DNA from: Chitinimonas sp. BJYL2
GTDB lineage: Bacteria; Pseudomonadota; Gammaproteobacteria; Burkholderiales; Chitinimonadaceae
Length of the DNA stretch: 64,000 nucleotides
Assembly: GCF_027257935.1 (NCBI RefSeq)
Contig: NZ_JANZKW010000001.1
Coordinates: 620,001-684,000 of the forward strand
Direction of reading: 5' to 3'
The notes under the pieces are model-generated. The model made no database searches. It had not been told where the DNA came from and saw only the letters and a list, made by a program, of their open reading frames with translations. Shown here piece by piece: positions 50,485-63,736 of the stretch; within the stretch, counting starts at the first letter, position 1; every line of letters starts with the position of its first letter. The translations under genes and the position numbers were made by a program.

Positions 50485-51516
50485 ATGTCCTCCACCCACC
50501 CTTTGCCGCGAATCTGCGCCGTTGTACCTGCCTACAAAGTCCACAACTTTGTTGTCAACGTCGTGAACGGCTTGTTTGATTACGTCGATCACGTATTCGT
50601 TGTGGATGACGCCTGTCCTCACGCATCAGGTCACACCGTTGAACAGGCATTTTCGGGCCATCCTCAAGTCACGGTGCTACGGTTGCCAGACAACCTGGGG
50701 GTCGGCGGCGCCGTCATGGCCGGTTACAAAGCGGCAGCAGAGCAAGGCTTCGAGATCCTGATCAAGGTGGACGGAGATGGTCAGATGGACCCGTCTTTCA
50801 TCCCCTCACTGATCGCACCCATTGTGGCCGGCGAAGCCGACTACACCAAAGGCAACCGCTTTTTCGAGCCAGATGGGCTACGCAGCATGCCGCTGGTTCG
50901 CCTAGTAGGTAATGCAGGCCTATCCTTCCTGACCAAGCTGTCGACCGGCTACTGGCAGATCATGGACCCGACCAACGGATTCACTGCCATACACGCAGAC
51001 GTGCTGCCTTGGATCAAACTGGAGCGCGTGGCCCAGCGCTATTTCTTTGAAACGGACCTGCTGTTCAGGTTAGGGATTGTAAACGCCGTCGTGATGGATA
51101 TTCCCATGCCGGCACGCTATGGCGACGAGGTCAGCAACCTGAGGGTCGGCCAAGCCCTGACCGACTTCAGCCGTAAACATGCTGCCCGCATCGCCAAGCG
51201 GATTACGTACCAATACTTTCTGCGCGGCTTCAGTCTTGGATCGCTGTGTCTTGCGCTGGCTATGCCACTTATCCTGTTCGCCACACTGTTTGGCGGTTAC
51301 GAGTGGTATCGCAGTATCACAACCGGCATTCCCGCAACCGCCGGCTCCATCATGCTCGCGGCGCTACCTGCCATGGTGGGCATTCAGTTGCTACTCAGCT
51401 TCTTTAGCCTTGATATGGCACGGCATGCAAGCAAACCACTCTGGATATTGCTCTACCAACGAAACAATCACACCCGGCGAACTCACGCCCCCGAGAAACA
51501 GGGGAGCCAAAATTAA
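50485..51516 (+). CDS. Glycosyltransferase family 2, GtrB/Dpm-like polyprenyl-phosphate sugar transferase
   Basis: A 343-residue GT2 enzyme. The N-terminal GT-A domain has CAVVPAYKVHNFVVNVVNGL, VFVVDDACPHASGHT (DD motif), LPDNLGVGGAVMAGYKAA and the metal-binding IKVDGDGQMDP. Two C-terminal membrane helices (about 255-275 and 290-315) match GtrB/Dpm1-type enzymes that load a hexose onto undecaprenyl phosphate. It completes the Gtr cassette with the two genes upstream. Its TAA stop overlaps the stop of the convergent PhyH gene. Confidence 0.88.
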   Translation: MSSTHPLPRICAVVPAYKVHNFVVNVVNGLFDYVDHVFVVDDACPHASGHTVEQAFSGHPQVTVLRLPDNLGVGGAVMAGYKAAAEQGFEILIKVDGDGQMDPSFIPSLIAPIVAGEADYTKGNRFFEPDGLRSMPLVRLVGNAGLSFLTKLSTGYWQIMDPTNGFTAIHADVLPWIKLERVAQRYFFETDLLFRLGIVNAVVMDIPMPARYGDEVSNLRVGQALTDFSRKHAARIAKRITYQYFLRGFSLGSLCLALAMPLILFATLFGGYEWYRSITTGIPATAGSIMLAALPAMVGIQLLLSFFSLDMARHASKPLWILLYQRNNHTRRTHAPEKQGSQN

Positions 51517-52811
51517 TCTCTGCGCAGTTCGCTCCTATGAACCGCGTGGCCAACGAGCCCGGATGAGTCATAGAACACAACAGCACCATCCGCAAAGGTA
51601 TGTATTACCATAGAGCGACGTGGTAACTCAGGATTTCGCCGCACGCTACCCTCATGCATTAGGTTCTCGTGCCAAATTAGAACAGTTCCTTTTTTGGGCA
51701 AGTAGGGCTCCGCCTTCAAGCCATTTCGACTGACGAGCTCACGCCAATAACCAACGACTTTTTCACCAAACTCTCGCCAATCCCCGTTTACCTTGGCACA
51801 TGCAACATCATGCATGTAAACGCGCGGCAGTCTATGACTGCGCGGGTACACCGCCAACTCGCCAGAGTTCGGCACAACATCTTGCAATGCAATCCAGACT
51901 CCACACATGTAGCCAGCTGGAAAGGGGGTCAAATGCACCGTATCTTGGTGAGCATCCTGCTGACTGCCAAAGACATAAGTTAATGTCTGGCAGGGGCGCG
52001 CGGTCGCCCGATAGAGCCTGTCAAGGATATCGAGATATCTTCTATCCAGAAAAAGCTTACGCGCATTTTCATAATGCGTGTGCAAATGCTCGATGCGTTG
52101 ACTGGAACCATACTCGTACCCTTGATAATGCGATGCAAGAGCATCATCAATTTCCGAATTAACGGCATCAATTAACTCGTGATCAATTAAACCCTCAAGA
52201 ACAATATAGCCCTCAGTTACAAAATGTCTGAAATGGGCGGCGATATCGGCGGGAAGAGCGCCTGACGCCTCCCAGGCGGCAATCTGCTCCATTGCATCAG
52301 GACGGTCATACCAAGGCTTGAGAGTATCATCAGCATAATCGTAACTCTCTGCATCGCAAAACGTATCAACAACCAGCCCTACCTCGTTACGACGGAAATT
52401 GGCCGATACCGATTCCGCCAACTCCCCAACGTTGGATACATCAAATTCAACTTCGCCACGCCATAACTCGGCCTTTGTCTCGGCATCAAGCAAAGTAGCC
52501 ATAAGACTATGGGGGCCGTTATCAAGAACATGCGTATGGAGAGCAAACCAAGCTGTGCCCCCCCCGGCATCATCCAATGGAACCTTTCGCAATCCAATCG
52601 TTGCCCGATCTCTAATCAAGCAAATCTCCACCTCCCGACTGGCAAATTGACTGGCGCGAACATGGAATTGCAATTGGGCCAACCCCACTAGAGGCTGTGG
52701 AGAATTAACAAACTCCCACTGAACAAATTCGATCACGCCCAACATTTCCATACTTTTTTGCACATGAGCCTGCACCGCCTTAGAGGTGCGGCCAAACCAT
52801 TTCCTTAACAT
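51513..52811 (-). CDS. Phytanoyl-CoA dioxygenase (PhyH) family protein with extra N-terminal domain
   Basis: A 432-residue protein. Residues about 25-140 form a beta-rich region (LAQLQFHVRASQFASREVEI, AWFALHTHVLDNGPHSLMAT) that looks like a small sandwich domain. Residues about 170-430 are a PhyH-type Fe(II)/2-oxoglutarate oxygenase: GYIVLEGLIDHELIDAV, the metal HxD in AHQDTVHL, GVWIALQDVVPNSGELAVYP and the distal His in NLMHEGSVRRN with Arg residues after it. It is last in the wzm-wzt operon, 31 bp after the WbsX-like gene, so a hydroxylation of a sugar, acyl or lipid carrier in the polymer is the likely job. Local DNA is less GC-rich than the flanks. ATG 52811 is preferred over GTG 52820. 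Confidence 0.85.
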   Translation of the reverse strand: MLRKWFGRTSKAVQAHVQKSMEMLGVIEFVQWEFVNSPQPLVGLAQLQFHVRASQFASREVEICLIRDRATIGLRKVPLDDAGGGTAWFALHTHVLDNGPHSLMATLLDAETKAELWRGEVEFDVSNVGELAESVSANFRRNEVGLVVDTFCDAESYDYADDTLKPWYDRPDAMEQIAAWEASGALPADIAAHFRHFVTEGYIVLEGLIDHELIDAVNSEIDDALASHYQGYEYGSSQRIEHLHTHYENARKLFLDRRYLDILDRLYRATARPCQTLTYVFGSQQDAHQDTVHLTPFPAGYMCGVWIALQDVVPNSGELAVYPRSHRLPRVYMHDVACAKVNGDWREFGEKVVGYWRELVSRNGLKAEPYLPKKGTVLIWHENLMHEGSVRRNPELPRRSMVIHTFADGAVVFYDSSGLVGHAVHRSELRRD

Positions 52812-52851
52812 CACTTCCACCCCACATCAAGCAATCACTTGAATTGCCAGC

Positions 52852-54138
52852 TTAATCAATAAAACCAAGAAAACGAGCAAAAGGGCGAATCGCCTTTTTG
52901 AGCCTTGGCCAGCGATTAAAAAAACCTCTTGCACTTAAATAGAAACGCTGGCGCCTGCTAGGCGGCACGCGCCTTGAGCTTTTAGTATCCAGCTCAATGT
53001 ACTCCCAAGCATCTCCAACACCTACGTCTTGGCTTGCGGGACTTAATCCGGCTATCAGTCCATCTAACAACTTATCTGGTGCAGGACCATGGTGACGCGC
53101 TGCCTGCGTAGCCTGTAGCCAGGCATGGCCGTAACGCAGGTCGGGCTCCAGATGGCAGCCCTCGGCCCATTCGTTCCATGCATTGATGAATACCAATGGT
53201 GCGGGCGTATGGGGGTCGCGCTGGCTGCGCGCAATAGCATCGGCGAGCCAAGCTCGGTAAACCATTGGGTGACTGCCCTGATAGCAGTGGCCAAACTGCC
53301 GACGCCTTGCTGTATTGTCCCAACTGGGCATGACACAGGGAAAGCGCGGGTAATTGACCGGTGCGCGAGCCAGATCAAAACGGACCGCATCCAGATAATC
53401 GAAGACACGTCCTTTGAATCCCGGCACCGCGTGCGTCTCCTCCGTGGCGTACTCGGCGGCCACCACGCCATGGGGCGGGAATGCGACGGCCGCGTCAAAT
53501 CCCCAGCCGGTAGGGTCACCAATACCGAAGCTCTGCACGGCGCACAGATAGGGATCGGCCAGCCCCTCTCGCGCGGCCTGTTCGCGCCAACGGCGAACGG
53601 TGGCCATCGGGTCAGGCAGTATATCGGCGCGGTAGACCAGGAACACGGGACGGCCATCAATCCTGATATAACGCGGATCGGCGAAATGTCGGCTTACATC
53701 CGCAAACATCGCCAGATCGTCCTCGGGACTATGCGACTGTGCGATCAGGACATCTCGCTCCTCGCCGTTCCAGCGCCGGGTCCAGTTTTCGTTCGCCCAG
53801 CACAGGCAGAAGGGCAGATCAGGTTCGCCATCGGCCAGCATGGCCTCCAGCGGCTGCTCCAGCAGCCGCTTACCGCCAAACCAGTAGTAGTGGTAACAGA
53901 AGCCGTCAATGCCGTATGCGCGGGCCAGAGCTGCCTGAGCTGCACGGCTCTCTCGCAGGCGCAGATCGTAGAAGCCGAGGTCCGCCGGCACGTGGGGCTG
54001 ATAGTGCGCCTGAAACTGTGGGCGCCCCTGGACAACATTGGTCCACTCGGTAAAGCCCTTGCCCCACCATGCATCGTTCTCAGGAATCGGATGGAACTGG
54101 GGTAAATAAAAGGCCAGCAGTTTAGGCTCTCTGGGCAT
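52852..54138 (-). CDS. WbsX-like / GH99-like domain protein of polysaccharide synthesis
   Basis: A 428-residue protein opening LLAFYLPQFHPIPENDAWWG and KGFTEWTNVVQGRPQFQAHY, the hallmark of the WbsX family (glycosyltransferase WTXX/GH99-like domain) found in O-antigen and capsule loci. LPFCLCWANENWTRRWNG and INAWNEWAEGCHLEPD are further family motifs. Whether these act as glycosyltransferases or glycoside hydrolases is not settled. The C-terminus is basic and amphipathic. The ATG at 54138 overlaps the stop of the GT4 gene by one base (TGATG). Confidence 0.87.
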   Translation of the reverse strand: MPREPKLLAFYLPQFHPIPENDAWWGKGFTEWTNVVQGRPQFQAHYQPHVPADLGFYDLRLRESRAAQAALARAYGIDGFCYHYYWFGGKRLLEQPLEAMLADGEPDLPFCLCWANENWTRRWNGEERDVLIAQSHSPEDDLAMFADVSRHFADPRYIRIDGRPVFLVYRADILPDPMATVRRWREQAAREGLADPYLCAVQSFGIGDPTGWGFDAAVAFPPHGVVAAEYATEETHAVPGFKGRVFDYLDAVRFDLARAPVNYPRFPCVMPSWDNTARRRQFGHCYQGSHPMVYRAWLADAIARSQRDPHTPAPLVFINAWNEWAEGCHLEPDLRYGHAWLQATQAARHHGPAPDKLLDGLIAGLSPASQDVGVGDAWEYIELDTKSSRRVPPSRRQRFYLSARGFFNRWPRLKKAIRPFARFLGFID

Positions 54139-56276
54139 CACGACAATCTTCCTGCGATACCCCAGAGTTTGTATATCGCCCGCATGCCCAGCTCCAGCAG
54201 GTATTGCAGGCCTCGACGCTGCCACGGACGAAGTTTTGCAGACTGGCTGAGCTTCACACGCAGATAACCATGGGCATCGTAAAGTGCCTGCCGGAAGGGC
54301 TTCGGGAAGCCCGCCATCTGGCCCACCAAGGTGCCAGGCTCGCATGGCTCAAGGCCGCGACGACGCGGAGAATAACCTGCCGCCATCGCCCGCAACGGCA
54401 GCAGCGCATGATAATCAGCGACCATGTCCTGTGTCGTACGGTGCCCATCTGCCACCAACACATCCCGCGTTCGCTTCAGGGAGTTGCGATCCGCATCAAG
54501 ACTTTTGAGTCGTCGCACGATGAGGCCGGCATCTGGGGGGCACAGGTAGCCATTCACACCATCTTGGATACGACTAAGGTAGGCGCCATGGTTCGTGGCT
54601 AACGGGGGAATACCTGCACACATCAGCTCACTCAAGGTGTAACTGAAGGTCTCCGGCACAATACTCAATAGTAAACCGATGTCCGGTGCATATTCCCGCA
54701 GGAGCGTCGGTAGACTCAACGCATCGTAATGCGGTACCACGGACAAGCCCTTGAAGTGGCGATAACGCTCACCAGCATCCCCGCAACCCAGCAAGACGAC
54801 ATCCGCAAAACCCGTAATCTCCGGCAAGGCGGCGTCCAGCAAAGCTTGCCCTTTGGCAACCGAAAGTCTGCCGAGCACAACCACGGTAAGCCTGCCGGTA
54901 CTAACAGTTGGCTGCCATGACCCAGGCTCGAGCCAACTGACACCATGCTCAATGACGACCGGCTCCGCCTTGGTCAATCGGGGAGCTAAGGCAGCATAGT
55001 TGCGTACAACGGATTCCGTGGGAGCAACCAGCCTTACCACGTTATTCAGCACTGCCTCAGCGTACTGCTCGCGCAAAGCAAGCCACTCTTCATCAAGCAC
55101 AGTGGGGAAAAGATGGTAGAGCGGATTTTCCTGGCGACAGGTACGCAATGCTACGGGATCACATTTGCTGCAGGTATGTCCCGCACGATGAATGTAAAGC
55201 GCCGGGCAGAATGGATAATACTCATGCCATACATGGACGGTAGGCAGTCCGGTCCGAAACGCATCGAGCGCGTGCCCGATCAATGAAGAAACGATCACTG
55301 CGTCGACTTGGAACTCACTGATTACGTCCTCCAACATCCGACGATACTCGGGATGATGATCAGCAGTACCGCGAATCGCACAGTCAAACTGCCATACCCT
55401 TACTGGCTCGCTGGCCTCGGGGCCTAGATATAAGGCAACGCGCTGACCATACAGGCCCACATTACCAATAGACTTCAGGACCAGATTGACCCGCCCGGTA
55501 TCTGCTTTGCAGTAATCCTGCACCCAGCGCTCCAGCCCCCCGCCCCAACTGTGCATGACATGCAGCTGCACTGGGCGACGGTCGAGCAGGTAAGGTGGAA
55601 AACAGTGTGTCCGGTATTGGCGGTAATGCAAAGGATTAATCGCCCCACACGCCGCCACCCAAGATGACAAAGCCTCAGGCAAGGCTATCCGAGGAAAATC
55701 GTCTGGCGCGCCAACCAAAACCACATCGGTGAGGCCGTGACTCGCATTTTGCTCTGTAAGCCACAAGGAAAATGGTTCGGTTTGTTCAGCATCGGCCCAC
55801 CGCTGCAAACTGTCAGGATCTACCCACTTCGCAAACAGAAGCACGCATGCGTTTGAACAAATCGGAGTGGCCCATACCTCGCCCAAACTACCGTCCAGCA
55901 CGATACGATCAGCGTCATCCAACGACACCTCTAAGACTGAAGCAGCAACAGGTGCGTGATATGGCAACTCGCGACACAGTGGCGACAGCGTCGCATAACC
56001 CCGTGCCAACTTGGCGGCCCCGACAAGTCGCGCATCCCATCCATAGGGCAAGCGAACGCCAGCCGCGAGCAGGATAACGTCGCCATTGGGCCACAAGTCT
56101 GCAGGGGCCATTTGTACACGGCCCGGCACCAGCGCATCCGCCAACGCAAGCGCGAGGGAACCCTGCGCATGAATCCAGACGGGCAAGCCATGCACCGAGT
56201 TCTCGAGGCAATCCCTGAGCGTGATCAGAACAGATTCAATATCCGCTCGCCGAGCAAAAAGGTGAATCTCCGGCAT
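54138..56276 (-). CDS. Large GT4-type glycosyltransferase with novel N-terminal domain
   Basis: A 712-residue protein. The GT-B fold enzyme seems to begin near residue 235 (VQLHVMHSWGGGLERWVQDY) and its donor site is at about 470-580: VVVLGRLSVAKGQALLDAAL and ETFSYTLSELMCAGIPPLAT, with the EX7E-like Glu residues. HVWHEYYPFCPALYIHRAGH and the CSKCDPVALRTC cluster occur in some GT4 enzymes. Residues 1-230 form a domain I do not recognise. The C-terminal ~35 residues are basic and aromatic (YLLELGMRAIYKLWGIAGRL), probably membrane-associated. One base separates it from the gene upstream. Confidence 0.82.
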   Translation of the reverse strand: MPEIHLFARRADIESVLITLRDCLENSVHGLPVWIHAQGSLALALADALVPGRVQMAPADLWPNGDVILLAAGVRLPYGWDARLVGAAKLARGYATLSPLCRELPYHAPVAASVLEVSLDDADRIVLDGSLGEVWATPICSNACVLLFAKWVDPDSLQRWADAEQTEPFSLWLTEQNASHGLTDVVLVGAPDDFPRIALPEALSSWVAACGAINPLHYRQYRTHCFPPYLLDRRPVQLHVMHSWGGGLERWVQDYCKADTGRVNLVLKSIGNVGLYGQRVALYLGPEASEPVRVWQFDCAIRGTADHHPEYRRMLEDVISEFQVDAVIVSSLIGHALDAFRTGLPTVHVWHEYYPFCPALYIHRAGHTCSKCDPVALRTCRQENPLYHLFPTVLDEEWLALREQYAEAVLNNVVRLVAPTESVVRNYAALAPRLTKAEPVVIEHGVSWLEPGSWQPTVSTGRLTVVVLGRLSVAKGQALLDAALPEITGFADVVLLGCGDAGERYRHFKGLSVVPHYDALSLPTLLREYAPDIGLLLSIVPETFSYTLSELMCAGIPPLATNHGAYLSRIQDGVNGYLCPPDAGLIVRRLKSLDADRNSLKRTRDVLVADGHRTTQDMVADYHALLPLRAMAAGYSPRRRGLEPCEPGTLVGQMAGFPKPFRQALYDAHGYLRVKLSQSAKLRPWQRRGLQYLLELGMRAIYKLWGIAGRLS

Positions 56277-56277
56277 A

Positions 56278-57447
56278 TCAACTCAAACGCAAAGCTCGCG
56301 CTACAGCAGCTATCTTTTGCGCCAAGCGCCACGACCTGGACTGCAGAATGCGATTAAGGGCCTCTCTGGTCTCATGCAGCTCACGGCCAGCCAGCTCAGG
56401 CGGCCTGGCGGCATTGCCCGGTGCCTGTTCAGCACGGTACCAATGGTAGTAGCTGTGATTGACCGAATCACATACATAAGGATCAGGGAATGCATCCCTC
56501 AGATCACCACGTAAACGGTACAACAGGCGCTCGTCCTGACCGATGCGCTCCCCATTGGCGTAAACGGTATAAATACTGGGCAGCTTGCCCAGTTCATGCT
56601 GCCCGTGGCGCGTACATTCCGCGATATACCAATCTCTGATCGCCCACAGCGCTTCGCTGCTGGCTGCATACTTCTTGAGCATCAGTTCCTGTGCACCACT
56701 GTCAAAACCAGAGTAGTGGTAAAGCCGCAGAGGCTGACCATTGACCATCAAACCACTGCGCAGGCTACCTGTCACAGTACGTTGAGTGAGGTTCCAAGTG
56801 GCAACGTTGTAGCTTGCGTCCCGGATTACCGCGAGGTCCTCAAAAAAGCATGGTGCCAGATCCACCCAACGCTGATCCGTAAAAATGCCGCCTGGAATGT
56901 CGTCGTAACAATGATCCAGTAGCCGCTGGGCCCACCAGTCAGCAAACCGGCGCCCCTCCGAAGAATTACGAACCGCCAGAAAACCCAGATTAAACACACC
57001 GTGCTTGAGGCTACATATCTCGTTGTCGATCACGGCATCCGGTGTGGTTTCTGGCTCGCAGAGATGCGGTGTCAGTAGCACACTGGATGTATCAAGCCGC
57101 TCAACCAACGGTGTCAGCGGCGCAAACACCACCATATCAGGGTCAAGATAGAAAACCTTGTCGGCGCCGCGCGTCTCCAGCAGCCACTTGAATGCGGGCC
57201 CTTTCACTGCGGTGCAAAGCTCGACCACGGAATGCATGAACGCCCAGCGCCGAAAATCAGCAATGCCCAACTGATCCGCAGTGACGAGACTATCAAAGGG
57301 CTCCCGCTCAATATCGAAGCCCGCAGGCGGTACATCCGAGAGCAGCAGCATGAAGTGCCCGTCCGGATGGTGCCGCTTGACGGATTCGGCCAGAACACGC
57401 GCTTTAGGTAAGTAATTACTGGTAATGCTGGTAAAGAAAACAACCAT
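56278..57447 (-). CDS. Glycosyltransferase with DxD motif (GT8-like)
   Basis: A 389-residue GT-A-type enzyme. It begins VVFFTSITSNYLPKARVLAE, typical of GT8-like transferases, and has a DxD metal site in KVFYLDPDMVVFAPL (about 96-110), followed by NLGFLAVRNSSEGRRFADWW and TDQRWVDLAPCFF. The C-terminal tail (about 355-389) runs ETREALNRILQSRSWRLAQK, a short helix plus the SxxWRL motif that recurs in the neighbouring methyltransferase. The sugar donor is unknown. It is spaced 36 bp after the methyltransferase gene in the same operon. Confidence 0.82.
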   Translation of the reverse strand: MVVFFTSITSNYLPKARVLAESVKRHHPDGHFMLLLSDVPPAGFDIEREPFDSLVTADQLGIADFRRWAFMHSVVELCTAVKGPAFKWLLETRGADKVFYLDPDMVVFAPLTPLVERLDTSSVLLTPHLCEPETTPDAVIDNEICSLKHGVFNLGFLAVRNSSEGRRFADWWAQRLLDHCYDDIPGGIFTDQRWVDLAPCFFEDLAVIRDASYNVATWNLTQRTVTGSLRSGLMVNGQPLRLYHYSGFDSGAQELMLKKYAASSEALWAIRDWYIAECTRHGQHELGKLPSIYTVYANGERIGQDERLLYRLRGDLRDAFPDPYVCDSVNHSYYHWYRAEQAPGNAARPPELAGRELHETREALNRILQSRSWRLAQKIAAVARALRLS

Positions 57448-57483: not shown

Positions 57484-59067
57484 TCAGAGTCCGATGCGGG
57501 TCAGTCGCAAAATACGCCCAAGGCGCCAGAGCTTGCTGTTCTTAACTGCTTCTAACATTGACTCTGCGTAACCAAGCCTATCAGACAGAATGTCCCTCGA
57601 CCTGTTCAAGTCAGAAAGCTGTGCCTCAAACCGTGAAATCCGGTCGTCACGGCTAGCCAGCTCCTGTCGCAACTCACGAACGTGCGCACCCAATTCTTGG
57701 AGTGCCGCCTCAGTACTTGTTGTGCGCTGACGCTCTCGTTCAAGCAGACTTAATGTTTCGGTGAGTCGAGAAACCAGCAGAGTACGCTCACTGGCCAAGC
57801 TTCGATATGCACCCTCCCTCTCTACGAGGCGCAAAGCGGTTGCTTCCAACTCGCGGCCAATAACAACAGCCTCTGGAACAAGCGGCCAACCGACCTCCAT
57901 CTCAAATGTCACATGATCATCAGCTTGATCCGCCGTCAAACCTGCCGGCAGGGTAAGCATGAAGTGTGGATCATCGCCAGTCAGAACAAGCTGAACGCCA
58001 TCCCCAAGCGAACCAGCGGGACACGCCGTAATCTGTCCAGAGACGTTGAAGTCACTGACCTCAGGCCGCCAAGCCCACAGAGTGCGCCCTGCTGAATCCA
58101 TCAACCGCGCAAAAAAGAGACGAAGGAAACCCGGTCGATCCGCAGGATCAATCCGCAAGTGCGTGCAGTTTGGCCGCCAACCCTTGAGATGAAAACGAAG
58201 CCGCTGGTTCTGGACGCCCATCCTGCCGAGCGCAAATACGCTATCTTTCTCGGCATGCACCGTGCCGGCAGTTGCCCAATACACTTGGGCACAAAACATC
58301 GGCTCCACACCGCAGGTAGCTGGTTCAGACATAGCCACCTCCCCATCAAGGGGGTAGCCAACTCTTAATACGAACTGATAAACCGATGAGTCAGCCTGTG
58401 CCGCCAAGAAACGCGCCATAGCCGGTGGAAAATAATCCAGCCGGTGCGCTTTAAACTCCGAATCCGCCAGCGGACGGAATACAGACGACCACTCCCGGAT
58501 TTGCAACTTGCACGATGACACACAGTCCGCCAGCGACTCCCTCGTGAAAAACCGAAGGTGCGTCCTATCAAGCAACCCCTCCTGCCGATAGGTGAATTTC
58601 CCGTTAATTAATTCACCAACCACGCCAATATAAGCCACATTAGGCACTGAGATAATTATCTCACCGTGCTCATCCAATAATGTCGCCAAGCTTCGAAGCA
58701 CCGCAGCAGGATCCACAAGGTGCTCAAGGACATCAGCGCACACAATGTAGCGATAGCGTCTACCGCTTATGTTATTTATCCAGCCCGATTGGCTCAGATC
58801 AGAAACCCAAACATCCCGATAATAGGGCTGAGCAATCTCTGCCTCCGTCGGGTTGTGTGTAATTCCATCAACTGAGTATTCTTTCCTCTCCGACAGAAAT
58901 CTAGCCAATGCACCCGTGCCCGTCCCGACGTCCAGCACAGCCCCCGGCACGGAGAGCATACTGACAATCCGATCGAGAGAGTCACCGCTTCCAACCAATA
59001 CATCCCTCTCGTACACATGCTGGGAAGCTACGCCCTCCGCAATAATTTGGGCATTATTCTTATTCAT
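57484..59067 (-). CDS. SAM methyltransferase with central beta domain and long C-terminal coiled coil (possible chain terminator/ruler)
   Basis: A 527-residue three-part protein. Residues about 1-215 are a class I methyltransferase (VLDVGTGTGALARFL as SAM motif I, YIVCADVLEHLVDPAAVLRS, IIISVPNVAYIG). Residues about 260-395 are beta-rich (LRIDPADRPGFLRLFFARLM and TLWAWRPEV), a domain often seen in glycan-locus proteins. Residues 417-509 are a heptad-like coiled coil, and the last 18 residues NSKLWRLGRILRLTRIGL are basic and amphipathic. No kinase domain is visible. It overlaps wzt by 8 bp. In E. coli O8/O9a, WbdD joins methyltransferase, coiled coil and membrane helix to stop chain growth; a comparable role here is inference. 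Confidence 0.84.
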   Translation of the reverse strand: MNKNNAQIIAEGVASQHVYERDVLVGSGDSLDRIVSMLSVPGAVLDVGTGTGALARFLSERKEYSVDGITHNPTEAEIAQPYYRDVWVSDLSQSGWINNISGRRYRYIVCADVLEHLVDPAAVLRSLATLLDEHGEIIISVPNVAYIGVVGELINGKFTYRQEGLLDRTHLRFFTRESLADCVSSCKLQIREWSSVFRPLADSEFKAHRLDYFPPAMARFLAAQADSSVYQFVLRVGYPLDGEVAMSEPATCGVEPMFCAQVYWATAGTVHAEKDSVFALGRMGVQNQRLRFHLKGWRPNCTHLRIDPADRPGFLRLFFARLMDSAGRTLWAWRPEVSDFNVSGQITACPAGSLGDGVQLVLTGDDPHFMLTLPAGLTADQADDHVTFEMEVGWPLVPEAVVIGRELEATALRLVEREGAYRSLASERTLLVSRLTETLSLLERERQRTTSTEAALQELGAHVRELRQELASRDDRISRFEAQLSDLNRSRDILSDRLGYAESMLEAVKNSKLWRLGRILRLTRIGL

Positions 59068-60358
59068 GAAGGACTCTCCCGCGGAGTTTGCCCACTTTCA
59101 AATCAGCCGGGATAGCCATCAACCCATGGAGAACCACCGTTTGCGATGTGAAAACCAATGCATCGTAAACCCAATGATGAACACGGTGGTCAGACTGACT
59201 ACCCTCGGCAACTGCGGCAGTTATCACATACTCGCCAGCATTGAGCGTCGGCATGGTGAAATGAAACTCGCAAAAGAACCTCTCCCCTTCCACAACGTCA
59301 ACGAGCTCATCACTCTGCAACGAAGAAGAATTCTCCCCGAATAGTATTTGCCCTATGCGGTTTTTGACTTGAAACCCAAGAATAGGGGAACCGATTGCGG
59401 TATTTGCGACGGCCTCGATTCTTAAGCACACTCTCGCCCCTCCATCTACGGCCATGGTCGAGCGGCCCGAGGAGTCAAGCAATACGACAGAGACCAGACG
59501 CGCGCCGCCATCTCCAAAAGAGTCCCCTGCCACCCATTCCGGCAGCGAATCTGGCAAGCGGATTGAATCCTCATGCTCAGCCTCATCTCCCTCTGAGGAC
59601 GGCGAGTTAGCAGTGTCCGCAGTGTCATACTGACTGGCCAAATAGCTCTCCATGACCGATTTGGCATCGCCCTGAAGGCGAATGGAGCCACCGTCAAGCC
59701 AAATGGCGCGGTCACATAGCGCTATGACAGATGCAGCATCATGACTAACAAACAGAAGCGTGCCGCCCCTCGCCTTAAAATCCCGGAGGAAGCGCATACA
59801 CTTCTGCGTAAAGAACGCGTCACCAACAGCCAGCGCCTCATCCACGACAAGAACATCTGCATCAACATGTGCAACAACAGCAAACGCCAAGCGAACGAAC
59901 ATGCCGCTGGAGTAGGTTTTGACGGGGCGCCAAACAAAATCTCCGATGTCCGCAAAGGCCAAGATCGCACTCATGCGACGATCAATCTCCGCATGGGTCA
60001 GGCCAAGTAATGCCGCATTCAGGCGTACATTCTCAATGCCGGTAAACTCTGGATTAAATCCCGCCCCAAGCTCCAAAAGCGCCGCGATACGGCCAGAGAC
60101 CTCAACACTCCCTCTGCTTGGATCCAGCGTTCCACAAATACACTGCAACAGCGTTGATTTTCCTGAGCCGTTACGGCCAACAACGCCAACCGTCTCCCCT
60201 GGAAATACAGAGAAACTAACATCAGCCAAGGCAGAGAATTGATCTACCGATCTGGCCTCACGGCCTAGCAGCAGATCGATTAGCCTTTGATGAGGCCGCG
60301 CATGACTGCCATATTGCTTGCTTAACGAGCAAACCTGAATGACTGGCTCAAAGGACAT
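59060..60358 (-). CDS. wzt: ABC transporter ATPase Wzt with C-terminal glycan-recognition-type domain
   Basis: A 432-residue ATPase for polysaccharide export. The N-terminal ~245 residues are the nucleotide-binding domain: Walker A VGRNGSGKST, signature YSSGMFVRLAF, Walker B VLVVDEALAVGD and FVSHDAASV. An acidic linker (about 265-290) leads to a beta-sandwich C-terminal domain (about 295-425: SVVLLDSSGRSTMAVDGG, ILGFQVKNRIGQILFGENS) of the Wzt-C type, which in E. coli O8/O9a recognises the modified non-reducing end of the O-antigen. ATG 60358 overlaps the permease gene by 11 bp. Confidence 0.93.
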   Translation of the reverse strand: MSFEPVIQVCSLSKQYGSHARPHQRLIDLLLGREARSVDQFSALADVSFSVFPGETVGVVGRNGSGKSTLLQCICGTLDPSRGSVEVSGRIAALLELGAGFNPEFTGIENVRLNAALLGLTHAEIDRRMSAILAFADIGDFVWRPVKTYSSGMFVRLAFAVVAHVDADVLVVDEALAVGDAFFTQKCMRFLRDFKARGGTLLFVSHDAASVIALCDRAIWLDGGSIRLQGDAKSVMESYLASQYDTADTANSPSSEGDEAEHEDSIRLPDSLPEWVAGDSFGDGGARLVSVVLLDSSGRSTMAVDGGARVCLRIEAVANTAIGSPILGFQVKNRIGQILFGENSSSLQSDELVDVVEGERFFCEFHFTMPTLNAGEYVITAAVAEGSQSDHRVHHWVYDALVFTSQTVVLHGLMAIPADLKVGKLRGRVLHE

Positions 60359-61133
60359 CTGCAAATCCACGTTTGACCCGACCAAAAAACCACAATCCCA
60401 ATGCGGCGATAAATATTGCCGCAATTGAGTACTGAATTAGTCCAATCCAGTCAGGCCATTGATCATTCAAAATCACAAGGCGGACTGTCTCAATAGGGTA
60501 GGTTACGGGATTGAATCGCATCAGCACCTGAAACGAAGAAGGCAGCGCAGAAACAGGATAGAAAACCGGAGAAAGAAACTGCAACGCTACCGTAACCATG
60601 GTTAAAATTTGTCCAAGGTCTTTCAAATAGGTGCCCAATGCAGCCAAAATTAATCCCAAACCAAACAGTAGAATGAGATACGGCAATAAAATTACAGGCA
60701 GTGTCAGCGCGGCAGGGCCAAGGCCAACCTGCACCGCAACAGCAATCAGCAACAAGGCTAAGGCCACCAACGCCTGAAATCCTGCCGAGCCCACCACAAC
60801 CAATGGCAGTAGAACTACGGGGAAAATGACGCGCTTAACATAGTTAGCATTCTGCATGATGATTATCGGCGCCCGCCCGACGACCTCCGAAAACATGGAG
60901 AACACGATCATCCCTGCGAACAGCATCAAAGCGAAGTGCACCTGCCCTCCAACCAGACCAGGCCATCGCGCCGAGAAAACAACGCTGAAAACAAATGTAT
61001 ACACAAGCAGCATCAGCAAGGGCGTGAGAAATGACCACATCACCCCTAGAAATGACCCGCGATAGCGCGAAGCAACATCCCGAATAATGAGCTGCAACGC
61101 AAGTGAATGCCGTAAACGCGCCGTACCAAACAT
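60348..61133 (-). CDS. wzm: ABC-2 type polysaccharide export permease Wzm
   Basis: A 261-residue inner-membrane permease with six membrane helices and the ABC-2 polysaccharide-exporter pattern: LIIRDVASRYRGSFLGVMWS near the N-terminus, IMQNANYVKRVIFPVVLLP in the middle and LTMVTVALQFLSPVFYPVSA after. It is the partner of Wzt and exports undecaprenyl-linked polymer. ATG 61133 gives the usual length; TTG 61151 is an in-frame alternative. First gene of the seven-gene minus-strand operon, divergent from the secretion genes. Confidence 0.92.
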   Translation of the reverse strand: MFGTARLRHSLALQLIIRDVASRYRGSFLGVMWSFLTPLLMLLVYTFVFSVVFSARWPGLVGGQVHFALMLFAGMIVFSMFSEVVGRAPIIIMQNANYVKRVIFPVVLLPLVVVGSAGFQALVALALLLIAVAVQVGLGPAALTLPVILLPYLILLFGLGLILAALGTYLKDLGQILTMVTVALQFLSPVFYPVSALPSSFQVLMRFNPVTYPIETVRLVILNDQWPDWIGLIQYSIAAIFIAALGLWFFGRVKRGFADVL

Positions 61134-61350
61134 GATGTCGTTAACCGTCAACTAAATTTCAAATTACACGCGGGCCACGGCGGCACGCAGGGCAAAGCAT
61201 CGTTTCAACGCACAGCGCCTACAAGCTGGCAGCAAACAATCGTGTATCATGACAGGTTTGACGCCGAAGCACACTCACGGCCGATGCTACTAATGAACGA
61301 AATCTAGGCGCGAACGTCTCATCGGATCTGATGGCCGCTGCAAGCTGCTG

Positions 61351-62484
61351 ATGGCGCCTCACTTCCTCAACACCGTCGAACCAAGGGCTCTCGTCATCTT
61401 GGAAACACCTGCACCGACACACCCCCAAGGGAGCACCGTCGCGAAACGACTGCGAGATGCGTTACGCCGCATATCTGGCTGGCTAGGGTTGGCGCCAGCC
61501 GATCAAATGCTGCCGCGGAAGCTTTGCCACCTTACGACCGTCAATCTGAAAGGGGTCCCCCGCAAGCACGCCCAAGCAGCCATCAGGCTACGACTGCAGC
61601 AGCTGGGGGTTTTCGAGGAAATTGGGTTTGCTTGGAGGGCCGTGGGCGATGTCGCACTGGTTTGGTACTGGGATGACACGCATGCACGTAGTCTATTCCC
61701 CCTCGGGCAAGTAGCAACGTGGCCAGAGCCTCTGTGGCGTTTGCCACCCGAGCAGGGCGTGGTACAGCACAAGTGCAGTGAAGGCTACGAGTTGGAGGGC
61801 CTCTCCTCATCAGGCCAATACAAGTCCCGCTGGTTCGAAGTAGAACCCTCACCGGATGACTTGCTGGGCTTTGTGCGTGACTTGGGAGAGTCACACCCCG
61901 TGCAAAGGCGCCCTCGCCACCCCGAAGCAACCGCAGCAAGAATGCCGCAGGGGGGATGGCAAATTAGCACGGCGCTCGTCCGCCCCATTTCACCCTACGC
62001 TCTTGGCGCCGGAGGCTTCGTTATTATCTGTGGTTGCCTCGCAGTCATCGAGTCGGCACAGCTGGTTCGCCTTCATAACGAGCACAAGAAACTTACGCTC
62101 GAGGCCGTAGCACTGGAGGCGCAGAACGCTCAAGTCAGAGCCATTGAGGCGGAAATGGCCAGTCTTACGCCCACGCTCGACACAATGCAGCAGTATATCG
62201 GCGCGCCGCGCCAAACCAACTGGCTGGCCGCAGTCGTTCGCCACGACATTGCAGGGAGTCTGCCCGATGTCTACATCGCCGAATGGGATTACAACGGAAG
62301 CCGGCTAACGGTTACGTTAAAACCCGGCCCCCGCGCACGCAATACAGACATCATTTCACGCATAGAACGCAGTCGATTATTCAGCGACGTGAGTCTGATC
62401 CCTGACCCTCCCCCGGGGACGCTGCGCCTAATGCTCAAGTTATCGACCGATACTTCCGCTAACTTGCCGCAAGCCCAATCATGA
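61351..62484 (+). CDS. GspL/PilN-like type II secretion (or type IV pilus) inner-membrane protein
   Basis: A 377-residue bitopic membrane protein: a cytoplasmic N-terminal part (about 1-205), one membrane helix (PYALGAGGFVIICGCLAVIE, about 211-232), a coiled coil (NEHKKLTLEAVALEAQNAQV) and a periplasmic ferredoxin-like domain (DVYIAEWDYNGSRLTVTLKP). This is the PilN/GspL layout. The N-terminal part is shorter than in classical GspL and I cannot see a full actin-like fold. It is followed by M-, C- and D-like genes in the L-M-N/C-D order known from Xanthomonas xps. No GspE-K genes lie upstream, since the wzm operon diverges here. Confidence 0.72.
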   Translation: MAPHFLNTVEPRALVILETPAPTHPQGSTVAKRLRDALRRISGWLGLAPADQMLPRKLCHLTTVNLKGVPRKHAQAAIRLRLQQLGVFEEIGFAWRAVGDVALVWYWDDTHARSLFPLGQVATWPEPLWRLPPEQGVVQHKCSEGYELEGLSSSGQYKSRWFEVEPSPDDLLGFVRDLGESHPVQRRPRHPEATAARMPQGGWQISTALVRPISPYALGAGGFVIICGCLAVIESAQLVRLHNEHKKLTLEAVALEAQNAQVRAIEAEMASLTPTLDTMQQYIGAPRQTNWLAAVVRHDIAGSLPDVYIAEWDYNGSRLTVTLKPGPRARNTDIISRIERSRLFSDVSLIPDPPPGTLRLMLKLSTDTSANLPQAQS

Positions 62485-63290
62485 TCAGCACTTCGCACAG
62501 TATCGAATCATCAATGAGCACGATGCAAAAAGCCACCGAGCGCTTGCAGCCTTGGGTTGAGGAGATTCGGGACAATCCCCGCCTACAGCTTGGCTTGGCA
62601 AGCATCGTTTTTATTGCGCTCGTATTCAGCCTACTTAAATTGGACGCTGAAAGGGTCAAGCTACAGGCCTCTGTCGAGAAGCTATACGGTGAAAATCGTC
62701 GCCTTCAGAAGCAGGCCGGGAGCGAAGCCTACCAAGGAGTGCTTGCAGGCAAGCTTGAAAAAGCAAAGCTCGCACTTAGTAACAGCCAGTGGCAAGCCGC
62801 ATCCCAGCTCTCAGCCCAAGCCATGTTTCATGACTGGCTGTCAGCGCGAATCGTGGACGCCGGCGTGAAGGAGTATCGCATTGCACAACCGACCGCTCGC
62901 TTCGTCGGTGACGAGCAATCTGGCTTGGGGATCGAGCAGCAAGACTGTACGCCTGAGACCTGTACGCTGCTCGAGTTACAAAGCTCGGTGAAAGTGGCAT
63001 TCGACCCAGTCAACGCGACCAAAGTGCTTGCAAATATCGAGCGATCAGATTGGCCTTTGAAAATTGAGAGCCTGACTATTCGCCCCGGCGATCGCAAGCT
63101 CGAATTTACTGTTAAGGCGCTGGCTCGCCTATCGAGCGATCTGCCCAATGACGAGCCTGCAGCACTTACAACACCACCTGCAGAGCAGCAACCAGCCCCG
63201 GCACCCAGTCAGGCAAAGTCCTCTGTCGCCGCCGGTGCAGAGGATACGCAGAGCACCCAGCCAAAGAAGGTAGTGGAAATCAAATGGTAG
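62481..63290 (+). CDS. GspM/PilO-like secretion protein
   Basis: A 269-residue bitopic protein with a short cytoplasmic N-terminus, one membrane helix (LGLASIVFIALVFSLLKL, about 37-54), a coiled coil (ERVKLQASVEKLYGENRRLQ) and a periplasmic alpha/beta domain with a probable disulfide in QDCTPETCTLLEL. The C-terminal ~50 residues are Pro/Ala-rich and low complexity. Resemblance to GspM/PilO is in topology and place rather than strong motifs. It overlaps the upstream gene by 4 bp and the next by 7 bp. Confidence 0.68.
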   Translation: MISTSHSIESSMSTMQKATERLQPWVEEIRDNPRLQLGLASIVFIALVFSLLKLDAERVKLQASVEKLYGENRRLQKQAGSEAYQGVLAGKLEKAKLALSNSQWQAASQLSAQAMFHDWLSARIVDAGVKEYRIAQPTARFVGDEQSGLGIEQQDCTPETCTLLELQSSVKVAFDPVNATKVLANIERSDWPLKIESLTIRPGDRKLEFTVKALARLSSDLPNDEPAALTTPPAEQQPAPAPSQAKSSVAAGAEDTQSTQPKKVVEIKW

Positions 63291-63736
63291 GCCTTACTCG
63301 CATTGCCGCCTTGACGGTGGTCCTGTGGTTTGTTTGCGCCGCACTAGGTTGGGCGTGGTACTCCTCGCCATTCGATAAAACCCTGGTAGTCACGCGCAGT
63401 CCGCACTTCATGCCAGAGGTGCCGCAGCCTCCCGACCTTACCCAAGACGTTGCACTGCTTCAACGCAGCCTCCTGTGGCCAACCGATCAGCCCTCCGCTC
63501 AAGCCGCGGGAAAACCGGCCGAGCCGCAGGTCATCAACGAAGTATGGTCACGCGTGGCCATCGTTAAGGAGCCTCAAGGCAACTTTGTCTTGCTTGGATC
63601 GCCCAGTGGCACGGTCAAGCCATTCAAGGCCGGCGACGTACTACCAGATGGCAGCAGGCTGATCAAAGTAAGCACATCGGAGATTGTCGTTCGGCCAGCA
63701 TCTGGCAAGAGTCAATCCGTGCACCTGCTTAATTAA
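63284..63736 (+). CDS. GspC/PilP-like secretion protein, without PDZ domain
   Basis: A 150-residue protein with one N-terminal membrane helix (about 5-25), a Pro-rich linker (VPQPPDLTQDV) and a compact beta domain (ESRVAIV-like WSRVAIVKEPQGNFVLLGSP, VKPFKAGDVLPDGSRLIKVS) as in the homology region of GspC or the C-terminus of PilP. That region would contact the secretin. There is no PDZ or coiled-coil extension, unlike many GspC proteins. It overlaps the M-like gene by 7 bp, and the secretin-like gene follows after 26 bp. Confidence 0.7.
   Translation: MVGLTRIAALTVVLWFVCAALGWAWYSSPFDKTLVVTRSPHFMPEVPQPPDLTQDVALLQRSLLWPTDQPSAQAAGKPAEPQVINEVWSRVAIVKEPQGNFVLLGSPSGTVKPFKAGDVLPDGSRLIKVSTSEIVVRPASGKSQSVHLLN

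Follow-up and report, generated by a model that had tools for sequence, protein, structure and literature searches.

On the minus strand of the window (the whole 64,000-nucleotide stretch of DNA analysed here, from Chitinimonas sp. BJYL2) lies an operon that, by open reading frames and Pfam matches, runs in the order wzm, wzt, methyltransferase gene, GT8-like gene, GT4 gene, WbsX gene and PhyH dioxygenase gene. The features, in window coordinates, are:

60348..61151 (-): wzm, transporter membrane subunit (ABC2_membrane, E 1e-25)
59060..60424 (-): wzt, transporter ATPase with C-terminal Wzt_C domain (open reading frame, Pfam)
59117..59521 (-): Wzt_C glycan-reading domain, Wzt residues 302-436 (PF14524, E 5.6e-31)
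57484..59067 (-): methyltransferase-collar-coil protein, 527 aa, proposed chain terminator and ruler (open reading frame, Pfam, model)
58357..58980 (-): class I SAM methyltransferase head, residues 30-237 (Pfam, alignment, VIA-align)
57859..58305 (-): beta-sandwich collar, residues 255-403, without a named family (HMM of relatives, model)
57541..57876 (-): coiled coil, residues 398-509, predicted single helix of 112 residues (model, heptad score)
57487..57540 (-): basic tail, residues 510-527, with S-x-x-W-R motif (alignment, charge +5)
56278..57447 (-): GT8-like protein (Glyco_transf_8 match below cut-off)
54138..56276 (-): GT4 protein, likely polymerase part (Pfam; BLAST to fused relatives)
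52852..54345 (-): WbsX glycosyltransferase (PF14307, E 7e-135)
51513..52820 (-): PhyH-type dioxygenase, near the operon end (Pfam)

The wzt open reading frame corresponds to 454 aa if a TTG start is used, and to 432 aa from the start chosen in an earlier sequence-only reading of this DNA. That reading placed the open reading frames correctly and noted that the methyltransferase gene overlaps wzt, which it does by 8 bp; its assignment of the C-terminal half of Wzt to Wzt_C is likewise borne out, and a Pfam scan finds this to be the only Wzt_C domain in the genome. The GT8-like protein, which has orthologues in the related loci L022 and L023, ends in the same S-x-x-W-R motif as the 527-aa protein. 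Divergent from wzm are three genes (61351-63736, plus strand) without a confident Pfam match, and since similar-looking genes stand beside the L022 and L088 operons, the chromosomal site of the operon appears to be conserved.

The 527-aa protein begins with a class I SAM methyltransferase followed by a beta-rich domain, as had been read from the letters. Methyltransf_23 matches residues 30-183 (E 3e-17), and the AlphaFold2 model (alignment of 13 sequences, mean pLDDT 79) places the methyltransferase at approximately 30-237, a beta domain at 257-393, a single helix spanning 398-509 and a short C-terminal one at 512-526. The head motif D46-x-G48-x-G50-x-G52 is invariant across 14 relatives in the alignment, and the best structural match to the head is 3cc8 (VIA-align Z 23.6, rmsd 3.6, 207 residues). 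The earlier statement that no kinase domain is visible agrees with our results, as Pfam detects no kinase family in the protein or in the operon, and the stretch between methyltransferase and coil has zero Pfam or NCBIfam matches. A hidden kinase is ruled out by length and fold; only residues 239-254 remain between the methyltransferase and the collar, and a kinase would not fit.

Modelled alone, the collar folds entirely into beta structure, with ten strands in about 150 residues (pLDDT 89, pTM 0.84). Foldseek gives zero matches to it in the PDB below E 0.001, while the top VIA-align match is the CBM BT0996-C (7zvo; Z 6.1, rmsd 3.2, 102 residues), with MATH domains matched at Z of about 5 and fucose lectins listed too among the VIA-align and Foldseek results. 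For this predicted structure such matches are at the level of common, unrelated beta sandwiches, and the fold assignment is not firm; no sequence relatives of the collar were found in the PDB. We call the collar “CBM-like” by its predicted fold and make no claim of sugar binding. That it might be a second Wzt_C domain is ruled out (hhalign probability 0.4%, E 0.16). The middle domain had been described as novel. This holds insofar as it belongs to no named family and lacks a firm fold match, but Klebsiella ORF6-O7 is described with an Ig-like, CBM-like domain of this kind in the corresponding place, between head and coil.

A coiled coil had been proposed at residues 417-509. The coil itself is supported by both heptad scoring and structure prediction, but its limits need revision, since the predicted helix is longer and spans 398-509. 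Heptad scoring, with register skips allowed, gives the window coil a z of 5.1, a score that none of 400 shuffles attains. The mean z over 14 relatives is 3.2, whereas control segments taken from these proteins give 0.07 and −0.46. The lengths of the aligned segments are 225-238 residues for the methyltransferase (CV 0.013), 147-177 for linker plus collar (CV 0.045) and 66-172 for the coil (CV 0.28), an approximately 2.6-fold range for the last; when the tail motif is taken as the end point, the longest coil reaches 174 residues. In the well-supported sister pair L049/L041, the coil is 137 residues in one and 87 in the other. The terminator-plus-ruler anatomy of the sequence-only reading is supported; Wzt_C is encoded next door, and length variation among the relatives is confined to the coil. 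Coiled-coil lengths also drift for other reasons, however, which counts against reading the coil as a ruler.

Some of the coils are encoded by tandem DNA repeats. In L049 the unit is 21 bp (4.6 copies), equal to whole heptads, and in L114, a collar protein with a different head, it is a near-identical 126 bp (5.1 copies; 42 residues, six heptads), so that a change in copy number would alter the coil length in register. In the L088 coil a 21-bp repeat is marginal, at 1.9 copies. Two weaker repeats have units of 18 and 30 bp, which do not correspond to heptads, and a search for tandem repeats in the window's own coil found none. In the tail that follows, S511 and R515 of the motif are invariant in the alignment of relatives. 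The C-terminus had been called basic and amphipathic; its charge of +5 confirms the former, but the latter is unproven, since the helical hydrophobic moment is no better than that of shuffles (p 0.56), and a strong amphipathic helix is thus unsupported by this measure.

Genome and plasmid searches together with domain scans gathered 15 proteins with the methyltransferase-collar-coil order, the window's own counted (the others are L022, L023, L088, L049, L041, L053, L024, L050, L042, L066, L039, L075, L076 and L077), with L090 as a weaker sixteenth member loosely placed in the tree. The family is sparse, the collar profile matching in 11 of 399 sampled genomes of the order and 16 of 369 of the class. 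A single-protein scan of genome contigs found nothing, and a scan of viral contigs gave only weak matches, at the level of the methyltransferase. A Wzt_C-bearing transporter lies within about 10 kb of 12 of the 15 members; L053 is without a nearby Wzt_C, and for L041 and L039 none was found on their contigs. L023 and L088 preserve the operon order wzm-wzt-methyltransferase-GT-GT-WbsX in full, and L022 preserves it as far as the two glycosyltransferases (GTs).

Eight relatives are fused to GT modules after the coil and tail motif (Pfam GT2 and GT4 in L050 and L066), and the separate GT4 of the window is homologous to the fused part in all eight (BLAST E 7e-13 to 1e-7; for L024 the match covers window residues 63-571 at E 7e-13). 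The enzyme head and the polymerase are thus at opposite ends of the coil in these eight proteins. In the fused forms the polymerase therefore comes after the tail; in the split forms, judging from sequence, it plausibly docks at the tail. Because most inner branches of the head-collar tree are weak, we do not claim an order of fusion and fission events. In L024 (4268-5627, minus strand), wzt is divided between two frames that overlap, one for the ATPase and one for Wzt_C, due to a frameshift or a sequencing error. A small methyltransferase-like protein of about 200 aa, not seen in the window operon, recurs in related loci, where its genes are:

L022:9207-9848
L088:13048-13653
L050:15128-15730
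L042:12910-13506
L076:15304-15957

The 527-aa protein resembles WbdD of E. coli O9a and Klebsiella O3 in its N-terminal methyltransferase, its long C-terminal coil and its stand-alone form, and the two systems share a Wzt with a C-terminal glycan-binding domain. Unlike that WbdD, it is without a kinase and has the beta-sandwich collar of about 150 residues in the kinase's place. Since a kinase was tested for and is absent, the protein is not an O9a-type WbdD, though it would work like WbdD (searches of the PDB with the 527-aa protein gave no WbdD chain among the matches, from a PDB copy that may not include WbdD). With WbdD of E. coli O8 and Klebsiella O5 it would share a phosphate-free methyl cap and the same overall strategy; in a comparison made by description only, the collar is present here whereas none appears in the description of O8/O5 WbdD. 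ORF6 of Klebsiella O7 (PMC11231755) is like the window protein in having a methyltransferase head, an Ig-like, CBM-like domain before the coil, the coil itself and Wzm/Wzt, but it differs in carrying a kinase that separates head from collar, as well as a fused pair of GT2 modules; the window protein has neither. The window collar is homologous to a domain in L055 and L115, which have the same layout as ORF6-O7, the latter being compared by its description. WsaE of the Geobacillus S-layer glycan (PMC2943079) is likewise kinase-less with the methyltransferase first, adds a 2-O-methyl cap and is encoded in a system where wzm, wzt and wsaE overlap, similar to the window genes. Unlike the window protein, WsaE has two glycosyltransferase modules in the same protein and serves a Gram-positive S-layer glycan, and a collar or coil is not described for it in PMC2943079.

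It is clear from these comparisons that the protein does not constitute a new type of terminator, as had been suggested: methyl-only caps are known from E. coli O8 (PMC3482155) and WsaE (PMC2943079), and heads of several kinds are already on record for coiled-coil terminators (PMC11231755). The observation is real, and the protein is most likely a terminator with a ruler, a new arrangement of parts within an established bacterial design. A CBM has been reported in only one terminator, ORF6-O7, and CBMs were not found in other terminator enzymes as of 2024 (PMC11231755). A search of the open literature turned up neither a kinase-less terminator carrying a collar nor the collar joined to other heads, though subscription papers or reviews may already describe part of this.

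We consider it likely that the 527-aa protein is the chain terminator and ruler for the polysaccharide exported by the adjacent Wzm/Wzt. The fixed head and collar lengths, the variable coil, the nearby Wzt_C and the GT fusion after the coil are all predicted by a polymerase-terminator-ruler arrangement, and known systems pair exactly these parts, with precedents for cap chemistry, ruler and cap reading in WbdD, WbbB, ORF6-O7 and ORF7-O4 (PMC11231755, PMC3482155). By analogy, the coil (approximately 17 nm if helical) would project from the membrane, carrying the methyltransferase heads distally; at its base it may be anchored by the C-terminal tail near membrane and polymerase, which would keep the head at a distance. 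Lying between coil and head, the collar probably either grips the end of the glycan or sets the orientation of the heads. Only chains long enough to reach the heads would be capped, the head probably O-methylating the lipid-linked glycan at its non-reducing end while it is still being extended, upon which growth would stop; Wzt_C would then read the methylated end and allow export.

The same parts could belong to a tailoring enzyme which methylates internal or side-chain sugars during growth, with coil and tail merely tethering it to the glycosyltransferases and the membrane and no ruler involved. We regard this as rather improbable: methyltransferases of that kind are common in polysaccharide loci, and a second small methyltransferase is present in L022, L042, L050, L076 and L088, but the fixed head-collar-coil order, the conserved pairing with Wzt_C and the GT fusion after the coil resemble known terminators (PMC11231755). 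There is a comparably small chance that the protein caps the chain and licenses export while length is set not by the coil but by transporter or polymerase stoichiometry. Such a dependence on transporter-to-synthesis stoichiometry has been found for Klebsiella O2a (PMC11231755), and methylation by WsaE in vitro is independent of chain length (PMC2943079), meaning that a methyl cap need not measure length. The O2a system, however, is without a terminator and without a Wzt carbohydrate-binding domain, unlike the window system, and the 2.6-fold variation in coil length is not seen in head and collar.

A methyl-phosphate cap, made with a kinase acting in trans or with the middle domain as an unrecognised kinase, seems very unlikely to us. 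Some collar relatives do follow a phosphotransferase-like domain (motif LHPGNIIID...FDLEW in L115), and the O7 kinase went unrecognised until modelled (PMC11231755). The collar is nevertheless all-beta and of about 150 residues, and in those relatives it accompanies the kinase-like domain rather than replacing it; within the operon Pfam finds no kinase family that could act in trans. If the 527-aa protein is a methyl-only terminator with a ruler, its family represents a natural kinase-less version of the design in other proteobacteria. To our knowledge, the measuring of surface glycans by bacteria is understood only in a few enteric O-antigens, and since the coil varies in length while the rest is fixed, the ruler model becomes testable across nature.

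The collar HMM also finds proteins with a methyltransferase-kinase-like-collar-coil layout, with or without GT2-GT2 (L051, L054, L055, L057, L058 and L115), in which the layout, and in L115 the phosphotransferase-like motif as well, points to a putative kinase. In L052 (9501-11153, minus strand) a sulfotransferase-like head precedes collar and coil, with Pfam scores of 23.6 and 17.5 bits that are below the curated cut-offs; this is a possible sulfate-capping enzyme, and its genome has no Wzt_C. The head is Methyltransf_24 in L114 (9357-11315, minus strand), followed by the collar and a long coil, whereas L089 has yet another head, of the Methyltransf_11 kind. A possible glycosyltransferase head (Pfam E 0.04) is seen in L091 (9438-11666, minus strand), which has a coil, the tail motif and a Wzm/Wzt_C locus, with a weak collar match (hhalign probability 92%, E 8e-7). 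Headless proteins with the order collar-short coil-GT2-GT2 lie directly downstream of wzt in L111 (6270-8645), L112 (6269-8644) and L113 (12873-15248), and these three genomes carry a methyltransferase-kinase-collar-coil protein on another contig.

The occurrence of the collar behind different heads suggests a shared stalk with swappable chemistry. We tentatively propose, as a possibility rather than an expectation, that collar and coil form a general terminator stalk whose swapped heads comprise several methyltransferase families, methyltransferase-kinase, sulfotransferase and perhaps glycosyltransferase, with the headless polymerase fusion as a further form and with the coil tuned by heptad-exact DNA repeats. 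Collar proteins without Wzt_C alongside (L053, L051), and one from a genome that lacks Wzt_C altogether (L052), count against the terminator reading. Should the stalk proposal be true, caps and relative chain lengths would be predictable from sequence, and the results suggest that it is a more surprising lead than the identity of the terminator itself. A comparable collar behind several enzyme heads, as opposed to a CBM in one terminator before (PMC11231755), offers a way to find or predict chain terminators in genomes, possible sulfate caps included. A relative of the window's PhyH dioxygenase directly adjoins the O7-like proteins of L055 and L056.
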